Assembly: GCA_016792825.1 (NCBI GenBank)
Contig: JAEUMI010000134.1
Location: forward strand, 24,342-88,341
DNA from: Hyphomicrobiales bacterium
GTDB lineage: Bacteria > Pseudomonadota > Alphaproteobacteria > Rhizobiales > Aestuariivirgaceae
Reading direction: 5' to 3'
DNA length: 64,000 bases
Below, piece after piece: positions 1 through 20,753 of this stretch (position 1 is its first letter; each line of letters begins with the position of its first letter). The notes below the pieces were generated by a model, which did no database searches, had not been told where the DNA came from, and was given only the letters and a program-made list of their open reading frames with translations. Made by a program: the position numbers and the translations under genes.

Positions 1-1235
1 GCGTTGAAAAAGATGTCGTTCTCAATCCGATCAAGCACGACACAGCCAACGAGATCGCCCAGCCATTCGAACCGAAAGACTGGAAGAAAGGCGAATGCGA
101 CCCGATCCCGGGGAAAACCATGCCGATGGTGATCAGCGTCGAACGGGACTATCCGCACATCTATGAGCGCTTTACCGCGCTCGGGCCGCTGATGGATTCC
201 GTCGGCAATGGCATCAAGGGCATGGCCTGGAAAACCGGCCATGAGGTCGAGCACCTCAAGGCATTGAACGGGGTGCATCTTGATGGCGCCAACAAGGGAC
301 TGGCCCGCATTGTCACTGACATCGACGCTGCAGAAACCATCCTGATGCTGGCGCCGGAAACCAATGGTGAGGTTGCGGTGAAAGCCTGGGAGGCGTTGTC
401 GAAGGCAACAGGCCGCGAACACGCCCATCTTGCCCTTCCAAAGGAGGATGAAAAGATCCGCTTTCGCGATGTTGTCGCCCAGCCGCGCAAGATCATCTCG
501 GCGCCCACCTGGTCGGGCCTTGAAAGCGAGAAGGTCTGCTATAATGCCGGCTATACCAACGTCCATGAACTGATCCCATGGCGCACACTAACCGGCCGCC
601 AGCAGCTTTATCAGGACCATTTGTGGATGAGGGCATTCGGCGCGTCGCTTTGCGTCTACCGGCCGCCCCTGGACCTCAAGGCGATCGCCCCGGTTCGCGG
701 GCTAAAGCCAAATGGCGAAAAGGAGATTGTCCTCAATTTCATCACGCCGCACCAGAAATGGGGAATCCATTCCACTTACACGGACAACCTGCTGATGTTG
801 ACCCTGTCTCGCGGCGGGCCGATCGTCTGGCTGAGTGAAACGGATGCCGCCAAGGCGGGCATTGTCGACAATGACTGGGTCGAAGCGTTTAACGCCAATG
901 GCGCGCTCGTTGCCCGCGCCGTCGTTTCACAACGCATGAAGGAGGGAACTCTCTTCATGTATCACGCCCAGGAAAAGATCGTGAATGTGCCGGGTTCCGA
1001 GATGACCGGAAACCGCGGCGGCATCCACAATTCCGTAACGCGCATCGTGATCAATCCGACCCACATGATCGGCGGCTATGTCCAGTTGGCCTATGACTTC
1101 AACTATTACGGAACGATCGGCACCAACCGCGACGAGTTTGTGGTGATCCGCAAACTGAAAACCGTCGATTGGCTGGAACGGCCCCATCCCGACGCCGCCA
1201 AGAATGTTTCCCTCATCCCGCAAGCTGCCGAGTAA
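1..1235 (+). CDS. narG: Respiratory nitrate reductase alpha subunit, 3' part
   Basis: The frame is open from base 3 and ends with TAA at 1233-1235, giving about 410 residues of a subunit that is usually near 1240 residues. The N-terminal Fe-S region and most of the Mo-bisMGD domain therefore lie outside the window. The visible part has the C-terminal molybdopterin-dinucleotide-binding fold typical of NarG, with stretches such as TGNRGGIHNS and VQLAYDFNYYG. The protein would reduce nitrate to nitrite on the cytoplasmic face of the membrane. Identity is secured by narH, narJ and narI following directly, with narH 14 bases downstream. The promoter is outside the window. Confidence 0.95.
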   Translation, partial: VEKDVVLNPIKHDTANEIAQPFEPKDWKKGECDPIPGKTMPMVISVERDYPHIYERFTALGPLMDSVGNGIKGMAWKTGHEVEHLKALNGVHLDGANKGLARIVTDIDAAETILMLAPETNGEVAVKAWEALSKATGREHAHLALPKEDEKIRFRDVVAQPRKIISAPTWSGLESEKVCYNAGYTNVHELIPWRTLTGRQQLYQDHLWMRAFGASLCVYRPPLDLKAIAPVRGLKPNGEKEIVLNFITPHQKWGIHSTYTDNLLMLTLSRGGPIVWLSETDAAKAGIVDNDWVEAFNANGALVARAVVSQRMKEGTLFMYHAQEKIVNVPGSEMTGNRGGIHNSVTRIVINPTHMIGGYVQLAYDFNYYGTIGTNRDEFVVIRKLKTVDWLERPHPDAAKNVSLIPQAAE

Positions 1236-1249
1236 GAAGGACCTCATCG

Positions 1250-2779
1250 ATGAAAATTCGCGCGCAAATCGCCATGGTTCTCAATCTCGACAAATGCATC
1301 GGGTGCCATACCTGTTCGGTAACCTGCAAGAATGTGTGGACCAGCCGGGAAGGCATGGAATATGCCTGGTTCAACAATGTCGAAACAAAGCCCGGCATTG
1401 GCTATCCGAAGGATTGGGAAAATCAGGACCGCTGGAATGGCGGCTGGCGCAGAAAGCGCAACGGCAAGATTGAACCGAAGATTGGCGGCAAATGGCGCAT
1501 TCTGGCAAACATCTTCGCCAATCCGAACATGCCGGAGATTGATGATTACTACGAGCCGTTCACTTTTGACTACGATCACCTGAAATCAGCACCAGAGATG
1601 GAAGCGTTCCCGACCGCGCGCCCACGTTCGCTCATCACGGGCGAGCGCATGGAAAAGATTGAATGGGGCCCGAACTGGGAGGAAATACTTGGCGGCGAAT
1701 TTGCCAAACGCTCCATGGATGCCAATTTCGAGGGCGTCCAGAAGGATATTTACGGCCAGTTTGAAAACACCTTCATGATGTATTTGCCGCGGCTGTGCGA
1801 GCACTGCCTCAACCCAACCTGTGCCGCCGCCTGCCCATCTGGCGCGATTTACAAGCGCGAGGAAGATGGCATTGTTTTGATTGACCAGGACAAGTGCAGG
1901 GGCTGGCGCATGTGTGTTTCAGGCTGCCCCTACAAGAAGATCTATTTCAACTGGTCAAGCGGCAAGTCCGAAAAGTGCATCTTCTGCTATCCCCGCATCG
2001 AGGCCGGGCAACCCACCGTATGCTCGGAGACGTGCGTCGGCCGCATCCGCTATCTCGGTGTCATGTTGTATGATGCTGACCGCATTGAAGAAGCCGCAAG
2101 CGTTGCTGACGAGAAGGACCTCTATGGCGCGCAGATGGGTATTTTTCTCAATCCTGAAGACCCGTCCGTGATCGCCCAGGCGCGTGCCGACGGTGTGCCG
2201 GACGCGTGGCTGGAGGCAGCGCGGCATTCGCCGGTTTACAAGATGGCTATGGAGTGGAAGGTGGCTTTTCCGCTGCATCCTGAGTACCGCACGTTACCCA
2301 TGGTCTGGTATGTCCCCCCGCTTTCGCCGATCACAGCAGCGGCGGAAGCTGGAAAAATGGGAACGGATGGCGCCATGCCGGACGTTCGCTCGCTCCGCAT
2401 TCCATTGAGATATCTTGCGAACCTGCTGACTGCGGGCGACGAGGAGCCAGTAGCGAAGGGCCTTGAGCGCATGCTCGCCATGCGCAGCTATATGCGGGCG
2501 AAAACCATCGATGGGGTGATCGACGGGGCCATCGCCAAAAAGGTAGGACTTACGTCCAAGCAGATTGAGGAAATGTACCACATCATGGCAATTGCCAATT
2601 ATGAGGACCGTTTCGTCATCCCGACAACGCACCGTGAAGCGACCGAAGACGCTTATGAGCTACGCGGCCAATGCGGCTTCACGTTTGGCGACGGCTGCAT
2701 GCCTAGCGACAGCAAGGTGAATCTGTTTGGCGGCGTCAAACTCAAGAATGACAAGGCCAATACAGGAGCGTTGGGATGA
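1250..2779 (+). CDS. narH: Respiratory nitrate reductase beta (Fe-S) subunit
   Basis: This 509-residue subunit passes electrons from NarI to NarG. All four cysteine groups are visible: CIGCHTCSVTC near residue 20, CEHCLNPTCAAAC, CRGWRMCVSGC and CIFCYPRI...CSETC. The tryptophan in CRGW replaces one cysteine, the known mark of the [3Fe-4S] cluster of NarH. Length matches the family at about 510 residues. I start it at ATG 1250, just after the narG stop, because upstream in-frame starts would run into narG and the family N terminus is MKIRAQIAMVLNLDKC. Its stop overlaps the narJ start (ATGA). Confidence 0.97.
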   Translation: MKIRAQIAMVLNLDKCIGCHTCSVTCKNVWTSREGMEYAWFNNVETKPGIGYPKDWENQDRWNGGWRRKRNGKIEPKIGGKWRILANIFANPNMPEIDDYYEPFTFDYDHLKSAPEMEAFPTARPRSLITGERMEKIEWGPNWEEILGGEFAKRSMDANFEGVQKDIYGQFENTFMMYLPRLCEHCLNPTCAAACPSGAIYKREEDGIVLIDQDKCRGWRMCVSGCPYKKIYFNWSSGKSEKCIFCYPRIEAGQPTVCSETCVGRIRYLGVMLYDADRIEEAASVADEKDLYGAQMGIFLNPEDPSVIAQARADGVPDAWLEAARHSPVYKMAMEWKVAFPLHPEYRTLPMVWYVPPLSPITAAAEAGKMGTDGAMPDVRSLRIPLRYLANLLTAGDEEPVAKGLERMLAMRSYMRAKTIDGVIDGAIAKKVGLTSKQIEEMYHIMAIANYEDRFVIPTTHREATEDAYELRGQCGFTFGDGCMPSDSKVNLFGGVKLKNDKANTGALG

Positions 2780-3537
2780 AAACCCTCAAGGTTCTTTCCG
2801 CCCTCCTCTCCTATCCGACAGCCGATCTGATGGCTGCCCATGATGAGCTGTGCATGGTCCTTGAGCAGGAGGCGGTTCTGCCAAAGCCGCAGCGCAAGGC
2901 TTTGCAGAATCTGCTGGATGACCTTGCCAGCGGCGATCTGATGGATGCCCAGGAACGCTATATCCTGCTCTTTGACCGCACACGTTCTTTGTCGCTTCAC
3001 CTGTTCGAACATGTGCACGGCGAGAGCCGAGACCGCGGCCAGGCAATGGTCGATCTGATCAAGGTCTATGAGGACGGCGGCTATAGCCCAACAACGGCTG
3101 AGCTTCCCGACTTCCTGCCGCTGTTTCTGGAGTATGCCTCAACCCTGTCACCAACCCAGGCCATCGAGCTCATTGGCCAGCCGTCACATGTTTTCGGCGC
3201 GTTGCGCGAGCGGCTTAAGAAACGCGGTTCCGTCTACGAGGCGGTTTTCGCTGCATTGATCCAGTTGAGCCAGGCCGAGCTCGACGAAGACATGATCGCG
3301 CGGCTTCTGGCGGAACCTGATCCCGAACCAGACGATCTTGAGGCGCTCGATGCCGCCTGGGCCGAGGAGGAAGTTCTTTTCGGGCCCGGTGCGGCGGCGG
3401 ACTCCTGCGGCAAGGATGGCCTTTCCGCCAAGCTGCGCCAGGCTAGAAGGCCCGCTCCCGGACTTGAAATTGAGCCCGGAAGTGGACCGCGTACGACATT
3501 CGCCTATTCCAGCAACGCCAACCGGCCGGGAGACTGA
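2776..3537 (+). CDS. narJ: Nitrate reductase molybdenum cofactor assembly chaperone NarJ
   Basis: This 253-residue protein belongs to the NarJ/TorD-type chaperones, which hold apo-NarGH until the Mo cofactor and the proximal Fe-S cluster are inserted. It is not part of the final enzyme. The family pattern is seen in the all-helical N-terminal half (LSYPTADLM, then LFEHVHGESRDRGQAM near residues 75-92) and the acidic region around residues 170-195. The last 50 residues look low in complexity and poorly conserved. It overlaps narH by four bases (ATGA), so translation is probably coupled, and narI starts three bases after its stop. Confidence 0.93.
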   Translation: MKTLKVLSALLSYPTADLMAAHDELCMVLEQEAVLPKPQRKALQNLLDDLASGDLMDAQERYILLFDRTRSLSLHLFEHVHGESRDRGQAMVDLIKVYEDGGYSPTTAELPDFLPLFLEYASTLSPTQAIELIGQPSHVFGALRERLKKRGSVYEAVFAALIQLSQAELDEDMIARLLAEPDPEPDDLEALDAAWAEEEVLFGPGAAADSCGKDGLSAKLRQARRPAPGLEIEPGSGPRTTFAYSSNANRPGD

Positions 3538-3540
3538 ACC

Positions 3541-4272
3541 ATGCGTGACAGTATTTTTACCATTCTCTTCGTCTGGTATCCCTATGTCTGTCTCACCGTT
3601 TTCCTGGTGGGCAGCCTTATCCGCTACGACCGCGAACAATATTCATGGAAAGCGAGTTCAAGCCAGATCTTGCGCCGGAAGCAGTTGACATGGGGATCAA
3701 ATCTTTTTCATTTTGGCATACTTTTTCTGCTCTTCGGGCATACGGTGGGGCTTCTCACGCCCACATCGATTTACACCCTGTTCATGACCGTTGAACTGAA
3801 ACAACTGGTTGCCGTCATTGCAGGTGGCGTGGCTGGCGTGGTTTGCTTCATTGGCCTCTCGCTCCTCCTTCATCGCCGCTTGTTTGACGCTCGCATTCGA
3901 GCCACCAGCACGCGCATGGATATTGTTGTGCTGATCATCCTGTGGGTACAACTCACACTCGGTCTGGTTACCCTGCCCTATTCACTCGCCCATTCGGACG
4001 GCTCGGCCATGCTGATATTAGCACATTGGGCTCAGGGCATCCTGACGCTGCATCCAGTTGAAGCAAGTACATTGCAGGGGCTGGACTGGCCCTATCTGAC
4101 GCACCTCGTGCTTGGCATGACGCTGTTCCTGGTGTTCCCATTCTCGCGTCTTGTTCATATCTGGTCAGCACCGGTTTGGTATCTTGGCCGCCGCGGCTAT
4201 CAGGTGGTGCGCACCCGCCGGGCTTTGACGGGCCGAAGCGGTCCAAAATCAACACATCAGCCAGCGGAGTGA
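3541..4272 (+). CDS. narI: Respiratory nitrate reductase gamma subunit (cytochrome b)
   Basis: This 243-residue integral membrane cytochrome b takes electrons from quinol and hands them to NarH. Five hydrophobic helices are visible. The four expected heme ligands are at His57 and His67 and at His188 and His206, one residue off the E. coli NarI positions 56, 66, 187 and 205, so both hemes b should be bound. Length is normal. The stop overlaps the start of the next gene as TGATG at 4270-4274, which ties the isomerase to the nar operon. Confidence 0.96.
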   Translation: MRDSIFTILFVWYPYVCLTVFLVGSLIRYDREQYSWKASSSQILRRKQLTWGSNLFHFGILFLLFGHTVGLLTPTSIYTLFMTVELKQLVAVIAGGVAGVVCFIGLSLLLHRRLFDARIRATSTRMDIVVLIILWVQLTLGLVTLPYSLAHSDGSAMLILAHWAQGILTLHPVEASTLQGLDWPYLTHLVLGMTLFLVFPFSRLVHIWSAPVWYLGRRGYQVVRTRRALTGRSGPKSTHQPAE

Positions 4273-6088: not shown

Positions 6089-6102
6089 TTGATCATTGTC
6101 AA
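6089..6102 (+). promoter_or_regulatory. FNR/Dnr-type box before the cytochrome c gene
   Basis: TTGAT-CATT-GTCAA is a 14-base dyad with one mismatch to the FNR/Dnr consensus TTGAT-N4-ATCAA. Its centre is about 59 bases before the cytochrome c start codon, which leaves room for class II activation with a start near 6137. A second box of the same form lies at 6615-6628. It would be read by the DNR-like regulator at 13430-14131 or by an unlinked FNR. Confidence 0.7.
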
Positions 6103-6154: not shown

Positions 6155-6526
6155 ATGAACATCAAAGTTTGCCTCTTTGCCTGCGCAGCGATTGCCGTTT
6201 TTGTTTCGTCCGCCGCTGCTGGCGACGCGGCGCTCGGCCAAAAGGTTTTCAATAAATGCAAGGCTTGCCATGAGGTAGCAGAGCCCAAGAATAGGGTGGG
6301 GCCCTCGCTCAAGGGTCTATTTGGCCGTAGCGCTGGAAGCGTAGAAGGTTTTGCCTATTCCGAAGCCATGAAAAACTCAGGCATCGTCTGGTCCGAAGAC
6401 ACCCTGAAGGCCTATCTGGCAGACCCCAAGACCGTTGTACCAGGCACCAAAATGTCATTCACCGGACTGAAAAAACACGAAGAGATTGAGAATATTCTTG
6501 AATATCTTGAGGAAGCCACAAAGTAG
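6155..6526 (+). CDS. Class I c-type cytochrome (c550/c2-like), periplasmic
   Basis: A 123-residue secreted cytochrome c. A signal peptide occupies about residues 1-22 and ends in SSAAA. The single heme site is Cys35-Lys-Ala-Cys38-His39, and Met100 in PGTKM is the likely sixth ligand. The FGRSAGS and VVPGTKM stretches are typical of mitochondrial/alphaproteobacterial cytochrome c2 proteins. I start at ATG 6155 rather than the in-frame ATG at 6065 because the longer form would bury the FNR box and lacks a signal peptide at its N terminus. It is a good candidate electron donor to the CuA subunit encoded downstream. Confidence 0.9.
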   Translation: MNIKVCLFACAAIAVFVSSAAAGDAALGQKVFNKCKACHEVAEPKNRVGPSLKGLFGRSAGSVEGFAYSEAMKNSGIVWSEDTLKAYLADPKTVVPGTKMSFTGLKKHEEIENILEYLEEATK

Positions 6527-6614: not shown

Positions 6615-6628
6615 TTGATCTTGGTCAA
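6615..6628 (+). promoter_or_regulatory. FNR/Dnr-type box before the heme-copper operon
   Basis: TTGAT-CTTG-GTCAA lies about 67 bases (centre) before the first gene of the heme-copper operon at 6689. It has the same form, including the GTCAA right half, as the box at 6089-6102. The spacing fits activation at about -41.5 from a start near 6663. This points to induction by low O2 or NO rather than by oxygen. Confidence 0.72.
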
Positions 6629-6688: not shown

Positions 6689-6862
6689 ATGGCTGAAAAG
6701 CCCAAGCCAGAAAGCGCTGCCGCTCCTCTTGAGCGAATTCCATTCATGCAGCGGCTGCTCGACAACCCATTCCTGCTGTTGTTCATCGGCGTTGTGGTTC
6801 CCACCGTCATCTACATTCTCTGGGGGGTAATGGAAATTACCCAGATTCCTTTGGCAAAATAG
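6689..6862 (+). CDS. Small single-helix subunit of the heme-copper reductase
   Basis: A 57-residue protein with one membrane helix at about residues 31-50 (LLLFIGVVVPTVIYILWGV). The N terminus is charged and proline-rich. It starts at ATG 6689 behind a strong AGGAGG ribosome site at 6679-6684. The gene lies ten bases before the CuA subunit. Small one-helix subunits (IIa or CbaD-like) are known partners of B-family heme-copper oxidases, and this is the most likely role. Sequence similarity to a named family is not obvious by eye. Confidence 0.75.
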   Translation: MAEKPKPESAAAPLERIPFMQRLLDNPFLLLFIGVVVPTVIYILWGVMEITQIPLAK

Positions 6863-6871
6863 AGGTCCACC

Positions 6872-7426
6872 ATGGCAATTTTTCCTCCGCAGACTCGAAT
6901 CTGGTGGAATGAGCCAGTCGCCAAAGCTGAATTGGTCTGGATTTCTGTCGCATTTCTGTGGGGGCTTATCATGTTTTTCATGATGATCTACTGGCACATT
7001 TATGGCCAGCAGAACCTGTCCACGCAAGTTGGCCGAATTGATCCCGCAGTGTTTGAGCAGCGAACGAACGAGTTTGCCGAAAAATTCAGAATCCGGGACG
7101 AAGGTGACACCGGCGTGCCTGTTGTAAGGCCGCCGCCGGGTGGTGATGCCTACATGCTGGCACGCACTTTCGACTGGTGGCCGGTGCTTGAACTTGAAAA
7201 AGGGAAACCATACAAACTGCATATCTCATCTGTTGATTTGCAGCATGGATTTTCACTGCTGCCCATCAACATGAATATCCAGGTTCATCCTGGCCTTGAG
7301 CACATTATCACTATTACGCCGACCGAGGCAGGCACCTATGGAGTCGTCTGCAACGAATATTGCGGACTGGGGCACCACCAGATGACCGGTCGTATTTATG
7401 TCGTCGAGCCGGGCCAGGGAGGCTGA
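6872..7426 (+). CDS. CuA-containing subunit II of a heme-copper reductase
   Basis: A 184-residue subunit II with one N-terminal membrane helix (about residues 21-42) and a periplasmic cupredoxin domain. The complete CuA site is visible: His125 in DLQHGF, then Cys160, Cys164, His168 and Met171 in CNEYCGLGHHQM. CuA accepts electrons from a soluble cytochrome c, probably the cytochrome at 6155-6526. Length and single helix fit the short B-family (ba3-like) subunit II rather than A-family CoxB. The stop is one base away from the subunit I start. Confidence 0.92.
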   Translation: MAIFPPQTRIWWNEPVAKAELVWISVAFLWGLIMFFMMIYWHIYGQQNLSTQVGRIDPAVFEQRTNEFAEKFRIRDEGDTGVPVVRPPPGGDAYMLARTFDWWPVLELEKGKPYKLHISSVDLQHGFSLLPINMNIQVHPGLEHIITITPTEAGTYGVVCNEYCGLGHHQMTGRIYVVEPGQGG

Positions 7427-7427
7427 T

Positions 7428-9164
7428 ATGTCCACAGTTGCAACCGAATCTGATTACATTGGCAAATTGGCAGCGAAATTCCGCACCTGCCCCGCAACTG
7501 GCCTCAAGGTTGACCTCGCCGCGGAGCGCTTGATCAAGGCCAACGCCGTAGCAGCGGTTGTATTCCTGGCGATCGGAGGAACTTTCGGGCTCCTGGTCGC
7601 TTTGACGCGCTGGCCCGCGGTACACCTGCTGTCTTCCGATATGTTCTACCTCGTGCTGACGGCCCACGGCCTTGATGTATTGCTGCTCTGGATCATCTTT
7701 TTCGAAATGGCAATTCTCTATTTCGCATCCGCCGTCATACTCAGCAGTCGCATTGCTGCGCCGCGATGGGGTTGGGTAGGTTTTGCACTGATGGTCGTCG
7801 GCGGCCTGATGACCAATGTCGCCGTGCTCCAGGGCGATTCAAGCGTAATGTTCACCTCCTATGTGCCGTTGAAGGCCCAGCCGCATTTCTATCTGGGACT
7901 CATACTGTTTGCCGTTGGAGCACTCATCGGCTGTTTCATCTTCCTCGGAACTCTGGTGATTGCGAAAGAGGAGAAAACCTACGAAGGTTCCATCCCGCTT
8001 GTCACTTTCGGTGCTCTCACGGCCTGCATCATCGCTGTCTTCACTATCGCGTCTGGCGCAATCATCCTTGTTCCAACTTTCCTGTGGTCAGTCGGTTACA
8101 TCGCCAACATCGATACCCTGACTTATAAACTCGTGTGGTGGGCGATGGGCCATTCATCGCAGCAGATCAACGTTTCGGCTCATGTGGCCGTCTGGTACCT
8201 GATTGCGGCTGTGACCGTCGGCGCAAAGCCGCTGTCTGAAAAGGTCAGCCGCACCGCCTTCCTCCTCTACATCTTCTTCCTTCAGCTTGCCTCTGCCCAC
8301 CATCTTCTTGTTGAACCAGGCCTCAGTTCTGAGTGGAAAATAGTCAACACCTCCTACATGATGTATCTCGCTGTCCTGGGCAGCATGATCCACGGAATGA
8401 CCGTGCCGGGCTCAATAGAGGCAGCCCAGCGCAAGAGCGGTTATACCCGCGGTGTATTCGAATGGCTGCGCAAGGCGCCTTGGGGCAACCCGGCCTTTGC
8501 CGGCATGTTCCTTTCGCTGGTGATGTTTGGCTTCCTCGGAGGCATCACGGGGGTGATACTCGGTACAGAGCAGCTTAACATCATTATGCACAATACCCTC
8601 TATGTGCCGGGGCATTTCCACGCCACGGTGGTGACCGGAACCACTCTTGCGTTCATGGCGGTTACTTATCTTGTCGTGCCGCTTATCTTCCAGCGCCAAA
8701 TCATCTGGCCGAAACTGGCGAGATTGCAACCCTATCTGTTCGGTTTCGGGGCCGCCGGCATTTCGCTTTTCATGATGGGAGCGGGTACGTTGGGTGTTGC
8801 CCGGCGGCACTGGGATATCTCCTTCGCAGACGCACTGCTTCCCTATGGCTATCCGCCCATGGCGTCCCTGATGATGGGCCTGAACGGCCTGTCCGCCATT
8901 CTCGCGGCAACCGGAGGTGCGCTCTATGTCTTGATTACGGTCGGAAGCATTCTGTTTGGAAAGAAAGTGGACGAAACCAATGCTGTTGCCTCACTGGGAC
9001 CCATGCCCAAGAAGGTAGTGCGGGAAGCCGTCACCAAGTATGGTAATGCAGGCACCTGGCATCTTCCCGGGACCTATGTCCTGGTTGGCATTTTCTTCAC
9101 GACCTTCATTCTCTACTACTTCGTGAATTGGAAATATCTGTCCGAACTCTGGCCGATGCAGTGA
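7428..9164 (+). CDS. Heme-copper superfamily subunit I, predicted nitric oxide reductase (not cNOR/qNOR)
   Basis: A 578-residue catalytic subunit with about 13 membrane helices. The histidines expected of the superfamily are present: His80 and His398 for the low-spin heme, His242, His291 and His292 for CuB, and His396 for the active-site heme (PGHFHAT). In oxidases helix VI reads GHPxVY, and its Tyr is cross-linked to a CuB His and needed for O2 splitting. Here the same place reads GHSSQQ (residues 241-246), so Tyr is replaced by Gln246. The WW before GH fits the B family. Loss of this Tyr, the CuA partner, the FNR boxes and the nar/NO neighbourhood favour NO reduction. I start at ATG 7428 behind GGGAGG. 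That it reduces NO rather than O2 is an inference. Confidence 0.8.
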   Translation: MSTVATESDYIGKLAAKFRTCPATGLKVDLAAERLIKANAVAAVVFLAIGGTFGLLVALTRWPAVHLLSSDMFYLVLTAHGLDVLLLWIIFFEMAILYFASAVILSSRIAAPRWGWVGFALMVVGGLMTNVAVLQGDSSVMFTSYVPLKAQPHFYLGLILFAVGALIGCFIFLGTLVIAKEEKTYEGSIPLVTFGALTACIIAVFTIASGAIILVPTFLWSVGYIANIDTLTYKLVWWAMGHSSQQINVSAHVAVWYLIAAVTVGAKPLSEKVSRTAFLLYIFFLQLASAHHLLVEPGLSSEWKIVNTSYMMYLAVLGSMIHGMTVPGSIEAAQRKSGYTRGVFEWLRKAPWGNPAFAGMFLSLVMFGFLGGITGVILGTEQLNIIMHNTLYVPGHFHATVVTGTTLAFMAVTYLVVPLIFQRQIIWPKLARLQPYLFGFGAAGISLFMMGAGTLGVARRHWDISFADALLPYGYPPMASLMMGLNGLSAILAATGGALYVLITVGSILFGKKVDETNAVASLGPMPKKVVREAVTKYGNAGTWHLPGTYVLVGIFFTTFILYYFVNWKYLSELWPMQ

Positions 9165-9176
9165 GGAGTTGAGGCG

Positions 9177-10061
9177 ATGACCACAGCCGCCGCCGTTCCA
9201 CTCGTCAGGGATGTGCTGTCGATCTTCAAATTGCGGATCGGGGTGGCCATCATGATGAGTGCAGTCGGCGGGGTTGCAGTCACGCCCGGCATCATGCCTG
9301 ACCTATGGCGCGTGACCATTCTTGCGTTAGCGGTATTCCTTGCCTCGGCCAGCGCAGGTGCCTTTAATCAGTGGGCTGAAGCCGATCTTGACCGCCAGAT
9401 GAAGCGCACGGCATCGCGGCCCTTTGCTGCCGGACGTTTCCGGGCTGATGGTACATGGCTAACGGCGATTCTCGGGCTTCTCGCCATAGCAGTGATTATG
9501 GCCGCCTGGGCCGCCAACTGGTGGGCCGCATTCCACACTTTCATGGGTGCTTTCGTTTACGGCATAATTTACACTGTGTGGCTGAAGCGCCGAAGCTGGA
9601 CCAACATCATTGTTGGCGGGCTGGCAGGCAGCTTTGCGGTCCTTGCCGGCGCCGCCGCTGTCCATCCCGGCTGGCAGGCGGAACCGGTCATCCTTTCGAT
9701 CGTGCTGTTCTTGTGGACGCCGCCGCATTTCTGGAGCCTGGCTATTGCCGCGCACGACGACTACGCGGCCGCAAGCGTTCCGATGCTGCCGGTTATCACC
9801 AGCAATGCGCTGACTGCCAAGGTGATATTTGCCCACACTGCCCTTCTTGTCACGCTCTCATTGCTTCCGGCATTCTGGTCGATGGGCCAGCTCTATCTCG
9901 CAGGCGCCGCAGCAGGAGGGGCCCTTTTCCTCTGGACCAGCGCCCGGCTGGTGTTTGAACCGACGCGCAAGCGGGCCATTCAGAATTTTCTGGCTTCGCT
10001 GCTTCAACTTGTCTTGCTGTTGTCCGGGACGATTGCCGACCGCGCCATCGGACCTTTCTGA
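9177..10061 (+). CDS. ctaB: Protoheme IX farnesyltransferase (heme O synthase)
   Basis: A 294-residue UbiA-family membrane enzyme that attaches farnesyl to heme b to give heme O. The prenyl-diphosphate site is Asn64 followed by Asp70 and Asp72 (NQWAEADLDRQMKRT) and the second Asp-rich motif lies at AHDDYAAASVPML near residue 198. About nine hydrophobic helices are visible and the length is normal. It starts at ATG 9177 behind GAGG, 12 bases after subunit I. Its presence in this operon implies that the reductase carries a farnesylated heme (O or, after CtaA, A) instead of heme b. Confidence 0.93.
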   Translation: MTTAAAVPLVRDVLSIFKLRIGVAIMMSAVGGVAVTPGIMPDLWRVTILALAVFLASASAGAFNQWAEADLDRQMKRTASRPFAAGRFRADGTWLTAILGLLAIAVIMAAWAANWWAAFHTFMGAFVYGIIYTVWLKRRSWTNIIVGGLAGSFAVLAGAAAVHPGWQAEPVILSIVLFLWTPPHFWSLAIAAHDDYAAASVPMLPVITSNALTAKVIFAHTALLVTLSLLPAFWSMGQLYLAGAAAGGALFLWTSARLVFEPTRKRAIQNFLASLLQLVLLLSGTIADRAIGPF

Positions 10062-10852
10062 TGCGACGCCTCCATGCCGCAGCATGGCTGTTCGCCATGG
10101 CCCTGTCGTCTCCCGCGCTGGCTGACACGCGGGTCGACACCGCTCTCGACGTTTCACAAGGCGCGATCGGCAGCAGTGTTCCGGATTTCACATTTCAAAG
10201 CGCGGACAGCGGCAAGATCGCGATCCGCGACCTGCGCGGGAAACCTTTGCTGATCACGTTGATCTATACGGGTTGCGCTGACGTTTGCCCCACCATCATT
10301 GAGAGCCTGGCGTCCTCCGCCGAGACAGCCGAGGCCGCGTTGGGCAAGGACAGTTTTAACATCATCGCAATCGGATTTGACACCCGCAACGACACCCCCG
10401 ACCGCATGCGTTCATTTGCCCGCGCCCATAATGCGGGAGGCGACAATTGGCATTTTGCGAGTTCCGACGCTAAAACCATAAATCGCTTAAGCGAGGCGGT
10501 TGGCTTCAATTTCTTTCCATCGGCCGGTGGCTTTGACCACATGGCCCAGGTGACGATCCTCGACAAGAATGGCACAATCTATGAGCAGGTATACGGCAGC
10601 AGCTTTGAGCCGCCTGCCATTGTCGAGCCGCTGAAGCAATTGGTATTCGGCCATCAGCGCCCGGCATTCTCTCTTGCAGGATTGGGCGATCGGATCAGGC
10701 TTTTCTGCACTATCTACGACCGCAAGACTGGCCGCTATTATTTCAGCTATGCGTTGCCTCTTTCAATAATCATTGGCCTTGGATGCCTGCTCGGGATATT
10801 TGTGTTCCTCATGCGTGAGACTCGAAAATCCGCCAAAGCCGAGGGGCGATAG
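10061..10852 (+). CDS. SCO1/SenC-type copper chaperone
   Basis: A 263-residue periplasmic thioredoxin-fold protein that delivers copper to CuA or CuB centres. The copper site is complete: Cys72 and Cys76 in TGCADVCP and His160 in GFDHMAQ. A signal peptide covers about residues 1-21. Unusually, there is also a C-terminal membrane helix at about residues 230-252 (YALPLSIIIGLGCLLGIFVF), while most SCO proteins are anchored at the N terminus. The start overlaps the heme O synthase stop by one base (TGATG). It is expected to load copper into the subunits encoded just upstream. Confidence 0.92.
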   Translation: MRRLHAAAWLFAMALSSPALADTRVDTALDVSQGAIGSSVPDFTFQSADSGKIAIRDLRGKPLLITLIYTGCADVCPTIIESLASSAETAEAALGKDSFNIIAIGFDTRNDTPDRMRSFARAHNAGGDNWHFASSDAKTINRLSEAVGFNFFPSAGGFDHMAQVTILDKNGTIYEQVYGSSFEPPAIVEPLKQLVFGHQRPAFSLAGLGDRIRLFCTIYDRKTGRYYFSYALPLSIIIGLGCLLGIFVFLMRETRKSAKAEGR

Positions 10853-10856
10853 GCCC

Positions 10857-12434
10857 ATGCATTTTGTTCGAAGGCCACTCCGCGCCGGATTTGATGCGGG
10901 TGAACGTCTTTTCGCGCTGGCGTTCCCTGCTAACGCAAACCCCCTGCTTAATCTTGGCGCGCTCGGTTTCTTTTTCTACTGGATCGTAACTGTCAGCGGC
11001 ATCTACGTTTACATTTTTTTTGACACAGGAGTCACTCAGGCTTTCGCCTCAATCGAGTACATGACGAATGAGCAGTGGTATGCGGCAGGCCTCATGCGCA
11101 GCCTGCATCGCTATGCCTCAGATGCCCTGGTCGCCGTCGTGCTGCTCCACATCCTGCGCGAATTTTCGCGCGACCGTTATCGAGGTGTCCGATGGTTCAA
11201 CTGGGTAACTGGAGTTCCCGTGTTGCTGTTCATCTACATAGCCGGCATCAGCGGCTACTGGCTGGTTTGGGACAATCTTGCCCAATATGTCGCGATCGTT
11301 TCGACCGAATGGCTGGATCATCTGCCGTTCTTCGGACAGCCAATTGCCCGCAATTTCCTGTCGCCCGAAACACTCGAAAGCCGCTTCTTCACACTGATGA
11401 TTTTCATGCACATCGCAGTGCCACTGATCGCACTTATCGGTTTGTGGGTCCACCTTCAACGGGTAAGCAAGCCGCGGATCAATCCGCCTCGGGAATTGGC
11501 CATCGGAACCGCACTGGCGCTGCTGGCGCTTTCTGCCGTGTATCCAGCGACAAGCCAGGGCGCTGCAGACCTGGCCAAGGTTCCGGGCAGCATTGGCCTC
11601 GATTGGTTCTACCTTGGCGCCTATCCCCTGCTTGAAACTCTTCCGGGGCCGGTGACGTGGAGCACGGCCGTCACCCTGCTCATAATCATGGTGGCAATTC
11701 CCTGGCTTCCCCCGATGAAGCGGCAGCGCGCCGCCGTCGTAGATCTCGCCAACTGCAACGGCTGCACCCGTTGTATGAATGATTGCCCCTACAGCGCAAT
11801 CACTATGCAAATCCGAAGTGACGGCAGGCCTTTTGAGGGCGAAGCAGTCGTTGATCCCAATCTCTGTGTTGCTTGCGGAATATGCGCGGGCGCTTGCCCC
11901 ACATCGACTCCCTTCCGCCGCCTTTCTGACCTGATTCCCGGCATCGACCTGCCAGACCGTTCCATGGCGGCGATTCGCGCCGAAGTCGAAGACGAGGGGG
12001 CGCGAATCACTGGCCCAGCCCGCATCATGATTTTCGGCTGCATCAATGCTGGCGTGGCAATGTCGTGCCGTTCGGACAATGTGGGCGTCGTTTCATTGAA
12101 CTGTACGGGGCAATTGCCACCATCCTTCATTGATTATGTCATCAGCCAGAAGTTCGCAGATGGTGTAATCATCGCAGGCTGCAGTGAAAACAGCTGCCAC
12201 AACAGGTTCGGCACCAGATGGACTGCAGACCGGCTATCTGGCGCACGCGACCCGAATCTCCGGGCACGTGTGCCGCGCGAGCGGCTTGTGGTTGTCTGGG
12301 CTGGAAGGCTTGGAGTTTCCATGCTTCGCCGGGAGATTTCCACCCTTGCGGCACGACTTGCGATCCTTGGCCCGTTCAAACCCAAAATGTACAGCAGAGG
12401 CGCCATAGCTGAGGAAGAGAAGTCCGATGCCTAA
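10857..12434 (+). CDS. Cytochrome b / two-[4Fe-4S] ferredoxin / MvhD-like fusion protein
   Basis: A 525-residue three-part membrane protein. The N-terminal part (about 30-280) resembles the core of cytochrome b: the two heme pairs are His84/His98 and His185/His199, each 14 apart as in bc1/b6f proteins. Residues 290-350 hold two bacterial ferredoxin motifs, Cys300-303-306-310 and Cys337-340-343-347. The C-terminal part (about 395-500) resembles the MvhD / FrhD-like Fe-S subunit of methanogen and hydrogenase complexes, with FGCINAG, SLNCTGQLPP and IIAGCSENSCHNRFG. Start is ATG 10857, five bases after the SCO gene. It probably links the quinone pool to a soluble carrier and perhaps to the reductase. 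The function is unproven. Confidence 0.8.
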   Translation: MHFVRRPLRAGFDAGERLFALAFPANANPLLNLGALGFFFYWIVTVSGIYVYIFFDTGVTQAFASIEYMTNEQWYAAGLMRSLHRYASDALVAVVLLHILREFSRDRYRGVRWFNWVTGVPVLLFIYIAGISGYWLVWDNLAQYVAIVSTEWLDHLPFFGQPIARNFLSPETLESRFFTLMIFMHIAVPLIALIGLWVHLQRVSKPRINPPRELAIGTALALLALSAVYPATSQGAADLAKVPGSIGLDWFYLGAYPLLETLPGPVTWSTAVTLLIIMVAIPWLPPMKRQRAAVVDLANCNGCTRCMNDCPYSAITMQIRSDGRPFEGEAVVDPNLCVACGICAGACPTSTPFRRLSDLIPGIDLPDRSMAAIRAEVEDEGARITGPARIMIFGCINAGVAMSCRSDNVGVVSLNCTGQLPPSFIDYVISQKFADGVIIAGCSENSCHNRFGTRWTADRLSGARDPNLRARVPRERLVVVWAGRLGVSMLRREISTLAARLAILGPFKPKMYSRGAIAEEEKSDA

Positions 12435-12930
12435 TTTGACGCAATACATTGGTCAGGCCCTCCTCTATGCGACATTTGCCGCAGCTATTGGGACCCTTGC
12501 ATCATGGCCGAGCCACACTCAATTGCCCGCGAACTCGGCCCAGATCAAACTGGCTTTCAATCACGGCGGTGCGCGCGTTGAAGATTGCCGGAAGCTTACA
12601 GCACAGGAGCTTTCAAAGCTGCCGAGCAACAAGCGGAAACCCAACGACTGCTCACGTGAGCGTGTGCCTGTCACGATCCAGCTGATGGTCGACGGCAATT
12701 TGCTCTATGATGCCGTGTTGCTGCCAAGCGGCCTTTCCAGCGATGGGCAGGCCCGAACCTACCAGAAATTCACTGTACCCGCAGGCAAACATGTTATCCT
12801 GGCGCGGCTTCGAGACAGCAAACGGGCCGAAGGCTTCGACTATGAAAGCAAATTTGAAGGCGAGTTGTCTTCCCGGCAAAATCTCGCCATCGATTTCAAG
12901 GCCGAACAGGGAGGCTTCCTCTTCAGGTAG
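12427..12930 (+). CDS. Unknown anchored periplasmic protein of the heme-copper operon
   Basis: A 167-residue protein I do not recognise. Residues 6-26 form a hydrophobic stretch that could be a signal peptide or anchor, and the rest is predicted to lie in the periplasm. The body looks beta-rich (VTIQLMVDGNLLYDAVL, FTVPAGKHVILARLRD), as in immunoglobulin-like or cupredoxin-like folds. It has two cysteines, in EDCRKL and NDCSRER. It overlaps the fusion gene by eight bases and is followed ten bases later by a bacteriohemerythrin, so it belongs to the operon and may help assemble or protect the reductase. Confidence 0.7.
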   Translation: MPNLTQYIGQALLYATFAAAIGTLASWPSHTQLPANSAQIKLAFNHGGARVEDCRKLTAQELSKLPSNKRKPNDCSRERVPVTIQLMVDGNLLYDAVLLPSGLSSDGQARTYQKFTVPAGKHVILARLRDSKRAEGFDYESKFEGELSSRQNLAIDFKAEQGGFLFR

Positions 12931-12940
12931 CGGATCAAAA

Positions 12941-13339
12941 ATGTCACTCATTGAATGGCGGAAGGAATTTGAAACCGGCATACCCGATGTAGATCACGAG
13001 CATCAGGAACTTGTCGATATCATCAACCGGTTGCATGCGCACATAGTGGGCGGTGCCGACCGATCTCACATAACCAAGTTTCTCGGCGAAGTATTCGCCA
13101 AGATCGCGGCGCACTTCGCGCTTGAGGAATCGATCATGCGCAAGCATGCGTACGATGAATATGAGGCGCACAAAGCTGAACATGAACGGCTGCTTGACGA
13201 GATCCGGGATATCATGGACGCTCAGCAGGACAACCCAACTTCCGCCTATGGCGACAGCCTATCGTCGACGGTACGGGACTGGTTTGTCAATCACTTCAAA
13301 TCGAAGGATGCCCGGCTGCACAAGAAACTGGGTGTGTAG
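12941..13339 (+). CDS. Bacteriohemerythrin
   Basis: A 132-residue single-domain hemerythrin. The di-iron ligand set is visible: His21 in the D-x-x-HEHQEL region, His58 and Glu62 in AHFALEES, His77 and His81 in AHKAEH, and His118 with Asp123 near the C terminus (NHFKSKD). Length fits the bacterial family. Such proteins carry O2 or NO to membrane oxidases or scavenge them. ATG 12941 begins with the canonical MSLIEWRKEFETGIPDVDHEH pattern; longer starts run into the upstream gene. It closes the heme-copper operon and could supply NO to, or keep O2 away from, the reductase. Confidence 0.9.
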   Translation: MSLIEWRKEFETGIPDVDHEHQELVDIINRLHAHIVGGADRSHITKFLGEVFAKIAAHFALEESIMRKHAYDEYEAHKAEHERLLDEIRDIMDAQQDNPTSAYGDSLSSTVRDWFVNHFKSKDARLHKKLGV

Positions 13340-13429: not shown

Positions 13430-14131
13430 TCAATCCTTTTCCGGGCCCCCTTCAAAGTAGCGCCGCAACTTGCCAATATCGTCAATGATGGCAATGTTCT
13501 GTTCAATACTGACGCCGATCTGCTTGAGCTTTGCAAAGGCCCGGGAAAGACTCTCGGGCTGCAAGCCCAGACGTCCGGCAATCAAGGTCTTGTCGTAAGG
13601 CAAGTTCAACCGGCAAGTACCTGTCTGTTCCATGCACTGCGACGAGAGGAATTCTGCCACTCGCTGCGCCCCTGTATGGGCCTTGAGCTGTTCGATCTGC
13701 TGGACCAGCATATGGAGATGCATCGACGTCGATGCCAGCATGGCCAGACCGATTTCGGCGTTTTCGCGGATCAATCGGAGAAGATTGCCGCTATGGACGC
13801 ACAACAAGCGGCCCTCGGTCACGGCCTCGCCGCTCGCTGGGAAGCGCCCGCCCACGAAGGCCGCTGCCTCGGCAAAGCTTTGCCCACGGGTAAAGACCGC
13901 AACGACAGTTTCCCCGCCCGATGGCGCTATCCTGTATATTTTGACCCAGCCTTCAAGCACCACAAAGAAGTAGCTGACTGGATCGCCTTGCACAAAGAGG
14001 AGTTCGCCCCGCGATACCACTCTCACCGTTGCGCCAGTGAGCAACATTTCGAACGTTGGCTGGGGCAGACCCGAAAAAATCGGTGCCGCCCGCACAATAG
14101 CCTTGTCAGAATTTTCGATCAGAAATGACAC
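13430..14131 (-). CDS. Crp/Fnr-family regulator, DNR/NNR type
   Basis: A 233-residue regulator with an N-terminal cyclic-nucleotide-type sensor domain (about 15-130), a dimer helix and a C-terminal winged helix. It lacks the N-terminal cysteine cluster of FNR, so it does not sense O2 by a [4Fe-4S] cluster. The QIEQLKAHTGAQRVAEFL linker and the recognition helix around PESLSRAFAKLKQIG match the DNR/NNR group, which senses NO and activates denitrification genes at FNR-like boxes. It faces the heme-copper operon tail to tail and lies head to head with ftrA. It probably acts at the boxes at 6089 and 6615. Confidence 0.85.
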   Translation of the reverse strand: MSFLIENSDKAIVRAAPIFSGLPQPTFEMLLTGATVRVVSRGELLFVQGDPVSYFFVVLEGWVKIYRIAPSGGETVVAVFTRGQSFAEAAAFVGGRFPASGEAVTEGRLLCVHSGNLLRLIRENAEIGLAMLASTSMHLHMLVQQIEQLKAHTGAQRVAEFLSSQCMEQTGTCRLNLPYDKTLIAGRLGLQPESLSRAFAKLKQIGVSIEQNIAIIDDIGKLRRYFEGGPEKD

Positions 14132-14448
14132 ATCGCCCTCGTCACTCCCCTTATTGCCCTGAACTCCCTTGAGATCAATGTATTAGTATCGAACGGCGAT
14201 GTCGGAGTGGCACTTGCCTTAACCGTCGGGGCTCAAACGCGCTATCGCCTTACTCCCGATGATTTCGCGTGAGCGCGATCAGGAGCTTATAACTCTTCTA
14301 ATGTATTGATTTAGTGCGATCTTTTTACACATCGCGCGCCTTCCAAACCGAGCATATAGAGTTATCCGACTAATTAAGTCGGATTATTTGATTGCATTCG
14401 GAACGGACCGTCCGACCGTCTCAAGTGATCAGTAGGAGGAACTCATTC
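14132..14448. other. Divergent intergenic region between the DNR-like regulator and ftrA
   Basis: This 317-base stretch has no credible gene. It is AT-richer than its surroundings in the right half. It holds the 21-base dyad at 14364-14384 and an 11-base palindrome, CGGACCGTCCG, at 14404-14414 about 35 bases before ftrA. I found no complete FNR-type box in it. Confidence 0.7.
14364..14384. promoter_or_regulatory. Perfect dyad before ftrABCD, resembling an IscR type 1 site
   Basis: ATCCGACT and AGTCGGAT form perfect 8-base arms around a 5-base AT spacer. The GACT-N5-AGTC core and the YY/RR flanks match the core of the known IscR type 1 motif, with deviations at outer positions. It lies about 65 bases before the ftrA start codon, so it probably lets an Rrf2-type iron or Fe-S sensor control the iron-uptake operon. 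Confidence 0.55.
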
Positions 14449-14985
14449 ATGCGTAGATTCACTCTCGTTCTTGCTGTCCTGGCTCTTGATGCGGGCTGGG
14501 CGATCGCCAAGGAAATCCCGATCGATAAGCCGCGGGCCGCCTCGGGGATGGAGATCGCCGCCGTCTATCTTCAGCCAATCGAAATGGATCCGCCTGGCAT
14601 GATGCGCGATGCCAAGGACTCCGATATCCATCTGGAAGCTGACATCAAGGCGGCGAAGGACAACAGCAACGGTTTCGCGGAGGGTGACTGGATACCCTAT
14701 CTCAGCATCGCTTACGAACTGGTGCATCTCGAAGGCGGGGAGACGCAAAAGGGTAGCTTCATGCCGATGGTCGCCAATGATGGACCGCACTACGGCGACA
14801 ATTTGAAACTCGCAGGGCTTGGAAAATACCAGCTTAAATTGACGGTGGCGCCGCCATCCGCCAGTTCCCATGCGCATTTCGGACGGCACACCGACAAGGA
14901 AACGGGCGTTGGTGAATGGTTCGAACCGTTCACGGTGGAGTATCACTTCGTCTATGCCGGAGTTGGCAAGAAGGGGAGTTACTGA
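14449..14985 (+). CDS. ftrA: Periplasmic iron-binding protein, P19/FtrA family
   Basis: A 178-residue secreted protein of the P19/Tp34 family, which binds copper and ferrous iron for FTR1-type uptake. A signal peptide covers about residues 1-20 (VLAVLALDAGWAIA). The family pattern is seen in the Met- and His-rich sites: EMDPPGMM, DIHLEADI, LVHLEGG, PHYGDN and SHAHFGRHTD. It starts at ATG 14449 behind AGGAGGA at 14435-14441. The order with ftrB, ftrC and ftrD is the same as in the Brucella and Bordetella ferrous-iron systems. Confidence 0.92.
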   Translation: MRRFTLVLAVLALDAGWAIAKEIPIDKPRAASGMEIAAVYLQPIEMDPPGMMRDAKDSDIHLEADIKAAKDNSNGFAEGDWIPYLSIAYELVHLEGGETQKGSFMPMVANDGPHYGDNLKLAGLGKYQLKLTVAPPSASSHAHFGRHTDKETGVGEWFEPFTVEYHFVYAGVGKKGSY

Positions 14986-14990
14986 GCGGA

Positions 14991-15341
14991 ATGATGTCGC
15001 CCCGAAATCAAACACTCCCGCTTCTGCTCGGAATCCTCGCACTGGCCGCCACGGCCTTTCCGGCATTGGCTGGCGACGAGCCGACCTTCCGGATCGAGTT
15101 CCGGAATGGGCATATTTCCCCGGGCCGTATTGAGGTTCCAGCGAAGACGCGATTCCGCCTGGAGCTGGTGAACACAGGCGAAATGCCGGCGGAATTCGAG
15201 AGCCTTGAACTGCGCAAAGAGAAGGTGATTGCGCCGGGATCCGAAACAGTAATGGTGATCCGCACTCTCGATCCTGGTGAATATTCGTTTTTCGATGATT
15301 TCCAGCCCGGGTCTCCGCCGGCAATCCTGACTGCGAAATAG
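14991..15341 (+). CDS. ftrB: Cupredoxin-like periplasmic protein FtrB
   Basis: A 116-residue secreted protein with a signal peptide at about residues 1-26 and a cupredoxin-type beta sandwich (FRIEFRNGHISPGRIEVPA, then LDPGEYSFFDDFQPG). In the FtrABCD system this partner is thought to oxidise or hand over iron at the permease. The classical type 1 copper ligand set is not complete here: no Cys is seen in the mature domain. Start is ATG 14991 or 14994. It lies five bases after ftrA and eight before ftrC. Confidence 0.85.
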   Translation: MMSPRNQTLPLLLGILALAATAFPALAGDEPTFRIEFRNGHISPGRIEVPAKTRFRLELVNTGEMPAEFESLELRKEKVIAPGSETVMVIRTLDPGEYSFFDDFQPGSPPAILTAK

Positions 15342-15349
15342 CGCCGCGC

Positions 15350-16192
15350 ATGACACCAAACCCTGGCATCATATCTGTCATCTGGCGGGAGAGCACCGAA
15401 GCGCTGCTGATCATCGGGATTCTCAACGCCTGGCTCACTCATCGCCCATCGCTGGAGCGCGTGGCCGCGCAGCGATGGCTTTGGTGTGGAGCAGGTGCCG
15501 GCTTGCTCGGAGCAGTTGGCCTTGCGGCTGTTTTGATACAGGTGGGCGATGCGTTAAGCGATGAGGCACAGGAGTATTTCCAGATGGGTGTCGTATTCGT
15601 GGCGGCGGCGCTTATCGTTCAGATGATATTCTGGATGCGGCGAAATGGCCGCACCATACAAGCCGACCTTCATGGCGCGCTTGAAGGAGCCGCCAGGAAA
15701 TCAAAGTGGTTCGCCGTCTTCTGCCTGGCTGCGCTTGCTGTACTTCGTGAAGGCAGCGAAACGGCGATTTTCCTTTACGGAACCATGGCGGGCATTCCTG
15801 GCGGCAGCTTTGCTCCAATGCTGTCTGTGGCACTCGGTTTGCTGGCGGGACTCGGCACCTATTGGCTTCTCCAGGTCAGTGGCCGAATCTTCTCCTGGCG
15901 GTTTTTCTTCCGCGTCACGGAAGTCATGCTGCTGTTCCTTGCGGCTTCGCTTGTCATGGCCGGGCTGGACCATCTTGTTTCGCTTGGCATGCTGCCCTCG
16001 CCGTCAGTTGGCCTGTGGGACACATCGCAATTCCTGCCCGACAGCGGGATGTTCGGCAGCATGATTGCCGGCCTTACGGGTTACCGCTCGAAGCCTCTCT
16101 TGGTTGAAGTTTGTGTATACGCCGCCTACTGGGTGCTCATCCTATGGTTTCTCAACCGTCCACGCGCAGGCGTCAGATCCCGATACGCATGA
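15350..16192 (+). CDS. ftrC: FTR1-family iron permease
   Basis: A 280-residue inner-membrane permease with about seven helices. The two REXXE iron motifs that define the FTR1/OFeT family are present, Arg13-Glu14-Ser-Thr-Glu17 in the first helix and Arg133-Glu134-Gly-Ser-Glu137 in the fourth. Length fits the family. It moves iron into the cytoplasm after handling by FtrA and FtrB. The stop overlaps the ftrD start (ATGA at 16189-16192). Confidence 0.95.
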   Translation: MTPNPGIISVIWRESTEALLIIGILNAWLTHRPSLERVAAQRWLWCGAGAGLLGAVGLAAVLIQVGDALSDEAQEYFQMGVVFVAAALIVQMIFWMRRNGRTIQADLHGALEGAARKSKWFAVFCLAALAVLREGSETAIFLYGTMAGIPGGSFAPMLSVALGLLAGLGTYWLLQVSGRIFSWRFFFRVTEVMLLFLAASLVMAGLDHLVSLGMLPSPSVGLWDTSQFLPDSGMFGSMIAGLTGYRSKPLLVEVCVYAAYWVLILWFLNRPRAGVRSRYA

Positions 16193-18084: not shown

Positions 18085-18534
18085 TCAACTGCTGGCTAGG
18101 ACCGGTGACTTGATATTTTGGCCTTCCCTCCTCGCAGGATAAGCGCAATCGGCGAGCGTTGAGCGGTCGAGTTCGCCATAAAAAGCCTGGCGTGCCGCTG
18201 CCAGCTTTCCCTTCAGCCGGCAGTCTGGTGTCAGCCGGCATTGGCCTCCATCCGCCTGGAAGCACTCGACCAGTGCATGGCGCTGCTCAAGAAGCCGGAC
18301 AAGCCCGCCGAGAGGTATCTCTTCCGGGGACTTGCTCAGCCTGAAGCCGCCGCCGACCCCGCGCAGGGTTACGACAATTCCGGCTTTGGCAAGATTATGT
18401 ATGATTTTCATCAGATGGTTCCGTGAAATTGCAAATTCATTGGCAATTTCATCGGTCGTAAAAACGCGCTCGGGCTCGGCTGCCAGCCGCATCAGGGCGC
18501 GGAGGCCAAAGTCGGTAAATTCAGTCAGGCGCAC
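18085..18534 (-). CDS. nsrR: Rrf2-family regulator, NsrR-like
   Basis: A 149-residue Rrf2 protein with an N-terminal winged helix (RLTEFTDFGLRALMRLA, DEIANEFAISRNHLMKIIHNLAKAG) and three Fe-S cysteines in the CFQADGGQCRLTPDC segment. NsrR uses a NO-sensitive Fe-S cluster to repress NO-defence genes. I start at GTG 18534 because the family begins MRLTxFTD; ATG 18582 would add 16 atypical residues. It is divergent from the RIC-type repair gene, a classic NsrR target, which supports NsrR over IscR or RirA. Confidence 0.85.
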   Translation of the reverse strand: MRLTEFTDFGLRALMRLAAEPERVFTTDEIANEFAISRNHLMKIIHNLAKAGIVVTLRGVGGGFRLSKSPEEIPLGGLVRLLEQRHALVECFQADGGQCRLTPDCRLKGKLAAARQAFYGELDRSTLADCAYPARREGQNIKSPVLASS

Positions 18535-20748: not shown

Positions 20749-20753
20749 CAGCA

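Follow-up and report, generated by a model that had tools for sequence, protein, structure and literature searches.

A predicted eNOR-type nitric oxide reductase, related to B-family oxidases, in an alphaproteobacterium

Here we analyse a heme-copper enzyme encoded in a window of 64,000 nucleotides (the whole stretch studied; contig JAEUMI010000134.1, positions 24,342 to 88,341, of the Hyphomicrobiales bacterium assembly GCA_016792825.1). The enzyme is very probably an eNOR, that is, a cytochrome c-linked nitric oxide (NO) reductase (NOR) related to the B-family (ba3) oxidases, in an alphaproteobacterium. What was observed directly is its subunit composition, the CuA site, the ligands of the hemes and of CuB, the absence of the active-site tyrosine, the conservation and the gene context. 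It is a new member of an already described family, whose glutamine signature is already in print. The genes of the enzyme are listed below; their conservation was followed in 80 relative loci compared for gene content, many of which end at contig ends.

6689–6862, + strand: 57-amino-acid membrane protein, subunit IIa-like; homologue in 78 of 80 loci
6872–7426, + strand: predicted eNOR subunit II, a cupredoxin with a CuA site (CuA motif, E20)
7428–9164, + strand: predicted eNOR subunit I, the heme-copper catalytic subunit (578 amino acids, Q246, H322)

Active site and subunits

Translation of 7428–9164 (Pfam COX1, 220 bits) confirmed all six heme and CuB histidines named in the initial annotation, H80, H242, H291, H292, H396 and H398, each at its numbered position. 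The central claim of that annotation, a glutamine in place of the helix-VI tyrosine, was also upheld: the motif WAMGHSSQQINVSAH (GHSSQQ) puts Q246 four positions beyond H242, a ligand of CuB, and at the position of the helix-VI tyrosine of oxidases. Among 115 distinct relatives (at least 44% identity over at least 400 columns) Q245 and Q246 are invariant (115/115). H242, H291, H292 and H396 are each kept in 115/115, H80 in 114/114 and H398 in 113/115, lysine replacing the last in two Thermus plasmid copies. Many of these relatives came from a scan with two patterns, one of which contains QQ; those found without a motif, through whole-genome protein searches and as four fetched plasmid loci (from 12 plasmid records that reach 44% identity), all carry Q as well. 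Because QQ is kept in 115/115 relatives, Gln246 is, judged by this conservation, neither chance nor a sequencing slip.

An alignment with A-family (8 rows), C-family (3), Tyr-bearing B-family (9), qNOR (1) and other sequences shows what stands in the tyrosine column: Y in A- and B-family rows, G in C-family rows, E in the qNOR and Q in the eNOR-like rows. C-family oxidases carry their active-site tyrosine on helix VII. The corresponding column (285) holds leucine in 112 and isoleucine in 3 of the 115 relatives, with leucine in the window protein, so that no tyrosine is supplied from that position; a contribution from helix VII was accordingly rejected.

The cupredoxin gene directly upstream of subunit I confirmed a two-subunit core, the arrangement given for eNOR in PMC8756737, and each subunit is present in all 80 loci. 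Subunit II has the complete CuA site that had been claimed for it: H125 together with CNEYCGLGHHQM, which starts at C160, makes up the full motif, and C-x-[DE]-x-C-x3-H-x2-M recurs in subunit II of 80/80 loci. Its profile scores, 20.5 bits for COX2 (cut-off 22) and 4e-14 for CoxB (TIGR02866), are both under cut-off. The subunit IIa-like homologue lies on the opposite strand in one of its 78 loci.

Several variants of the catalytic subunit were seen besides. The two Thermus thermophilus plasmid genes (L050, 7983–9668; L163, 5983–7665) are eNOR-like with GHFK, lysine standing for the second low-spin heme histidine, which would mean an unusual or missing low-spin heme; one of the two lies close to nirS. 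Heme-copper-like relatives of subunit I (L092, 9601–10518; L095, 1899–3290; L110, 467–1894; L136, 12006–13457; and L154, from the BS150m-G7 genome) keep H80, H242 and, outside the partial L092, HxH, with xY for HH and F at the tyrosine position. This type has lost both helix-VII CuB histidines and lies near eNOR in 4 of the 80 loci. Finally, two same-genus genomes hold a second B-like subunit I with HNLHY (L017, 1315–3009; L018, 1423–3117), in which HH has become YH and the heme-proximal histidine is tyrosine.

Relation to B-family oxidases and to other NO reductases

The closest solved sequences found with phmmer are B-family oxidases. An AlphaFold model of subunit I (predicted local distance difference test, pLDDT, 80.7; predicted template modelling score, pTM, 0.85) had its best fold match in the Thermus ba3 oxidase, and Foldseek template modelling (TM) scores against B-family oxidases, including that of Thermus thermophilus (PDB 1ehk, 1xme), were 0.73–0.80. 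The fold, the heme and CuB ligands and the CuA subunit are common to the window enzyme and to T. thermophilus ba3 and other B-family oxidases, but identity to the ba3 enzyme is about 24%, and its tyrosine (presumably Tyr237 in ba3 numbering) and a threonine are replaced by Gln246 and His322. Reduction of O2 by the window enzyme is expected to be lost.

In a maximum-likelihood tree of 49 rows, 23 Q-type rows cluster together (92/95) and 9 Tyr-bearing B rows form a separate group (99/99), the Q group standing apart from the true ba3 oxidases. The window subunit I (row P0001) is nested deep among the proteobacterial rows of the Q group, which includes the genes of BS150m-G9 (L121, tree row L151) and SIO54-bin61 (L139, equated with that genome by a name match, spelled SI054_bin61). 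The deeper order, with its long branches, is unsure: heme-copper relatives without CuB ligands adjoin the Q group, and the one N-type row groups with the A family. L121 is 69% and L139 about 70% identical to the window protein over nearly the full length; both have Q at the tyrosine position, and their neighbouring genes are largely those of the window. BS150m-G9 holds three PF00115 genes, one A-family, one C-family and L121, which is neither.

In the literature, an alphaproteobacterial enzyme of the Magnetospirilli named ba3-a1 was described in 2019 as having no catalytic tyrosine and SCO within its operon (PMC6431628); it was renamed eNOR, with NOR activity, and BS150m-G9 and SIO54-bin61 are named as having it for their NO reductase (PMC8879329). 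A table of active-site residues gives Q for eNOR, N for sNOR and CuANor, D for gNOR and E for cNOR and qNOR (PMC8756737, Table A4), and eNOR is stated to be biochemically characterised (PMC11388526). The initial annotation had proposed a B-family-derived NO reductase that is neither cNOR nor qNOR, a reading supported by sequence, phylogeny, genome context and these published descriptions, all of which point to eNOR in particular. It had further likened the enzyme to those of recent surveys; the family fits, but the enzyme is not novel, eNOR having already been described and reported as characterised. The reaction predicted for the window enzyme, 2 NO to nitrous oxide (N2O), is the same as in cNOR and qNOR, whereas those enzymes are C-family-related with glutamate at the site and the window enzyme is B-family-related with glutamine. 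Neither cNOR nor qNOR is known to have a CuA subunit.

If the enzyme were instead a B-family oxidase that reduces O2 in spite of lacking the helix-VI tyrosine, it would share the fold, CuA, CtaB and SCO of ba3-type oxidases, all found here, and annotation pipelines label the relatives oxidases. Yet the 115 relatives have no tyrosine at the A/B or the C position, the clade is separate from the Tyr-bearing B oxidases, the genome already holds A-family and C-family oxidases, and the denitrification context and FNR/Dnr boxes described below speak against oxygen as the substrate; we regard this explanation as very improbable.

Assignment to another tyrosine-less NOR family (sNOR, gNOR, bNOR or nNOR) we hold to be similarly remote. 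sNOR, gNOR and bNOR (CuANor) are B-family-related and without the tyrosine, as is the window enzyme, but have N or D rather than Q. Nitrifiers have the gene order norSY-senC, which the SCO gene near the subunits resembles, and SCO in the operon order first suggested sNOR; this identity was rejected on the residue, Q and not N. Neither the asparagine of sNOR and bNOR nor the aspartate of gNOR is present in the window protein, which has Q246. The published table (PMC8756737) assigns asparagine to sNOR and CuANor and aspartate to gNOR, against Q in 115/115 relatives here; the nNOR residue was not found in the published descriptions used. The N-type reference L145 falls outside the Q group, though it is long-branched. 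L145 is a tyrosine-less heme-copper gene of a Thermomicrobium roseum plasmid, on which an eNOR-like gene is present too; its active-site asparagine, in GHTLVN, is the residue tabulated for sNOR.

Operon and regulation

The predicted eNOR genes lie in a cluster with the following features:

6089–6102, + strand: FNR/Dnr-type box TTGATCATTGTCAA, upstream of the cytochrome c gene
6155–6526, + strand: class I cytochrome c, a putative electron donor (over cut-off for Pfam Cytochrom_C, 37.6 bits; 13 of 80 loci)
6615–6628, + strand: FNR/Dnr-type box TTGATCTTGGTCAA, beginning 74 bp before the first start codon of the operon
9177–10061, + strand: CtaB/CyoE heme O synthase (TIGR01473 252 bits, over cut-off; 66 of 80 loci)
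10061–10852, + strand: SCO1/SenC copper chaperone (Pfam SCO1-SenC 47.8 bits, over cut-off; 78 of 80 loci)
10857–12434, + strand: fusion of cytochrome b (four His), two [4Fe-4S] and FlpD/MvhD, a possible electron-transfer partner (76 of 80 loci)
12427–12930, + strand: 167-amino-acid operon protein without a Pfam match (69 of 80 loci)
12944–13339, + strand: hemerythrin (Pfam Hemerythrin 48.9 bits; 65 of 80 loci)

The same operon occurs on a Defluviimonas plasmid, where subunit I is annotated as an oxidase. The gene was found in 3 of 37 searched genomes of the same genus, and as a two-piece copy in 1 of 24 others of the order.

Scanning the 64 kb with the FNR/Dnr-type pattern TTGAYNNNNRTCAA gave 2 matches against 0.38 expected, a count reached in 6 of 100 shuffles. 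Both boxes precede the eNOR cluster, and none lies elsewhere in the window. Among relatives, a box at most 400 bp upstream of the first gene was present in 51 of 77 loci (3 of the 80 being unscored), compared with 82 of 2356 tiles cut from these loci, the upstream boxes themselves being counted among the tiles.

Denitrification context

Further genes of nitrogen-oxide metabolism and anaerobic respiration flank the cluster:

1–4272, + strand: narG (3′ part), narH, narJ and narI, nitrate reductase, upstream of the eNOR cluster
18085–18528, − strand: NsrR-like Rrf2 regulator, NO sensing (NsrR 112.7 bits, under cut-off 182; Rrf2 superfamily over cut-off)
18688–19218, + strand: YtfE/DnrN-like di-iron NO-stress repair protein (YtfE 175.7 bits, under cut-off 254)
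19211–21671, + strand: ubiT, ubiU and ubiV, anaerobic ubiquinone synthesis (all three over cut-off)
21682–22872, + strand: nnrS (Pfam NnrS 360 bits)

A broken narG at the window edge, where the listed reading frame starts at an internal ATG, was considered and rejected, the frame being open upstream and 1264 amino acids long in the contig. Within the fetched flanks, narG or narH was present in only 2 of the 80 relatives. By reading, 13430–17580 holds an iron uptake set (Fe2+ transport protein, cupredoxin-like protein, FTR1-like permease and 4Fe-4S membrane protein) that adjoins a regulator whose best match, under cut-off, is FtrB.

The window genome (3.18 Mb in 353 contigs, 96% complete) encodes NirK elsewhere (488 bits). 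On our reading, the genes clustered with it code for a NirV-like protein, HemN, an FNR-type regulator and CcoNO. Neither a cd1 nitrite reductase nor NosZ was found in this genome. NosZ was sought with TIGR04244, which matched in two positive genomes and replaced PF18764, which had no match in the control; in the window genome TIGR04244 matched weakly, and what it matched was the CuA domain in subunit II. By contrast, BS150m-G9 and SIO54-bin61 have a cd1 nitrite reductase (PMC8879329) and NosZ. Only an A-family gene, a C-family gene and the eNOR subunit I pass the PF00115 cut-off in the window genome, and no other NOR-like subunit I was found there with this profile, which does detect a qNOR elsewhere (L153). 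L005 was rejected as a fourth heme-copper gene (PF00115 23.7 bits, cut-off 34.8) because its frame, closed by a stop at 145 amino acids, is too short for the ligands of helices VI to X. The predicted eNOR is thus the sole NOR candidate that the genome was seen to hold.

We also surveyed 398 Pseudomonadota genomes, 30 of which, the window genome included, had a strong subunit I match (E 4e-183 or better); a 31st, G286, has an eNOR fragment alone and was counted among the 368 others. A cd1-type protein was present in 26/30 eNOR genomes versus 27/368 others, and either NirK or a cd1-type protein in 27/30 versus 81/368. Proteins of heme d1 synthesis that are related to cd1 are matched by PF02239 as well. 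The draw contains related metagenome-assembled genomes (12 families, 11 with NirK or cd1), so that the p-values overstate independence. Besides that of the window there are 29 eNOR genomes, and at least 10 of them have a cd1-type gene no more than about 7.2 kb from eNOR on the same contig. A link of eNOR to NirK specifically was rejected (1/30 versus 55/368).

Some of these results weigh against the assignment to eNOR and to denitrification. NirK taken alone shows no association with eNOR, as those last counts tell; cd1 genes and related families of metagenome-assembled genomes (11 of 12) account for the association, and 3 of the 30 eNOR genomes have neither NirK nor cd1. A genome that is 96% complete in 353 contigs leaves room for an unassembled cNOR or qNOR. 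In the tree, the support of the Q group (92/95) is below the starred level, and the outgroups are few and long. The assignment comes from sequence and context. The purified and characterised eNOR reportedly came from Rhodothermus marinus, and the link to it runs through secondary papers.

A separate question is what the NO reduction serves. It may be mainly detoxification under micro-oxic conditions rather than respiration, a role compatible with eNOR identity that we consider possible but on the doubtful side. NO-stress genes lie nearby (hemerythrins and the NsrR-like, YtfE/DnrN-like and NnrS genes), and eNOR has been discussed in this sense in the literature; NarGHJI upstream, the anaerobic ubiquinone genes, the FNR/Dnr boxes and the kept K-type columns suggest respiration instead.

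A cytochrome b–FlpD fusion that accompanies eNOR

The fusion protein encoded downstream of SCO has four histidines for two b hemes and eight cysteines for two [4Fe-4S] clusters, kept in 69/69 full-length relatives, and the four cysteines of its FlpD part are kept in 67 to 69 of the 69. In the 398 genomes, the fusion was found in 29/30 eNOR genomes versus 5/368 others, on one contig with eNOR in 17 of the 29. All five other genomes belong to families with eNOR elsewhere in the draw, and one of them is G286, the genome with the eNOR fragment. Only 3 of the 27 genomes with cd1 and without eNOR carry the fusion, which therefore tracks eNOR rather than cd1. Around the Thermus and Thermomicrobium eNOR copies, no fusion match was found in flanks of 8 kb.

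A protein of similar architecture, RME88945.1, in which FlpD is combined with cytochrome b6 and DMSOR beta-like domains, stands in the appendix table of a paper on denitrification (PMC8756737). A published tie between the cytochrome b–2[4Fe-4S]–FlpD fusion and eNOR was not found in the portions of the literature consulted, and the nearly one-to-one company of fusion and eNOR in Pseudomonadota is the point that we did not find in print and a new lead. Going by gene company and cofactor motifs, the fusion is a possible electron-input partner of eNOR. More tentatively, and with less than even confidence, the Pseudomonadota eNOR may not be a plain cytochrome c:NO reductase alone: the fusion would couple in cytoplasmic or quinone electrons, and a K-type channel with H322 would conserve energy.

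Proposed mechanism and proton path

We propose that electrons from a periplasmic cytochrome c would enter at CuA and move on to the low-spin heme and then to the high-spin heme/CuB pair, where two NO would be joined to N2O with the uptake of two protons. Gln246 would stand in place of a redox-active tyrosine because NO reduction would need no extra electron from the protein. Protons may enter from the cytoplasm by a K-type path (E20 of subunit II, S319, H322, T325 and Y257), in which case NO reduction may conserve energy. NO arising from NarGHJI and NirK would be consumed, and N2O released, under FNR/Dnr-type and NO-responsive control.

In the phmmer alignment to the ba3 oxidase, H322 and S319 fall at K-path positions, which we take to be T312 and S309, respectively, in ba3 numbering. 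The H322 column holds lysine in A-family, threonine in Tyr-bearing B and glycine in C rows. H322 and S319 are kept in 115/115 relatives, and the glutamate of subunit II (E20) in 79/79 that cover it; by its placement, E20 probably matches the K-path entry glutamate of B-family subunit II. According to published sources, the B-family K-path includes a glutamate on subunit II (PMC8780969) and eNOR has one predicted proton channel (PMC8756737, Table A4). The kept K-path columns would agree with that single channel, the agreement being one of residue conservation and not of conduction.

Implications

On the plasmid records inspected, eNOR relatives are annotated as oxygen-reducing cytochrome c oxidases, and bNOR and sNOR are likewise labelled oxidases under KEGG (PMC11388526). 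With the relatives of eNOR carrying oxidase labels, a capacity for NO and N2O turnover is easily overlooked: scored by cNOR and qNOR genes alone, the window genome would count as having no NOR. The likely product, N2O, is a greenhouse gas. The strict company of the fusion is, in turn, a clue to the electron supply and energy conservation of eNOR.

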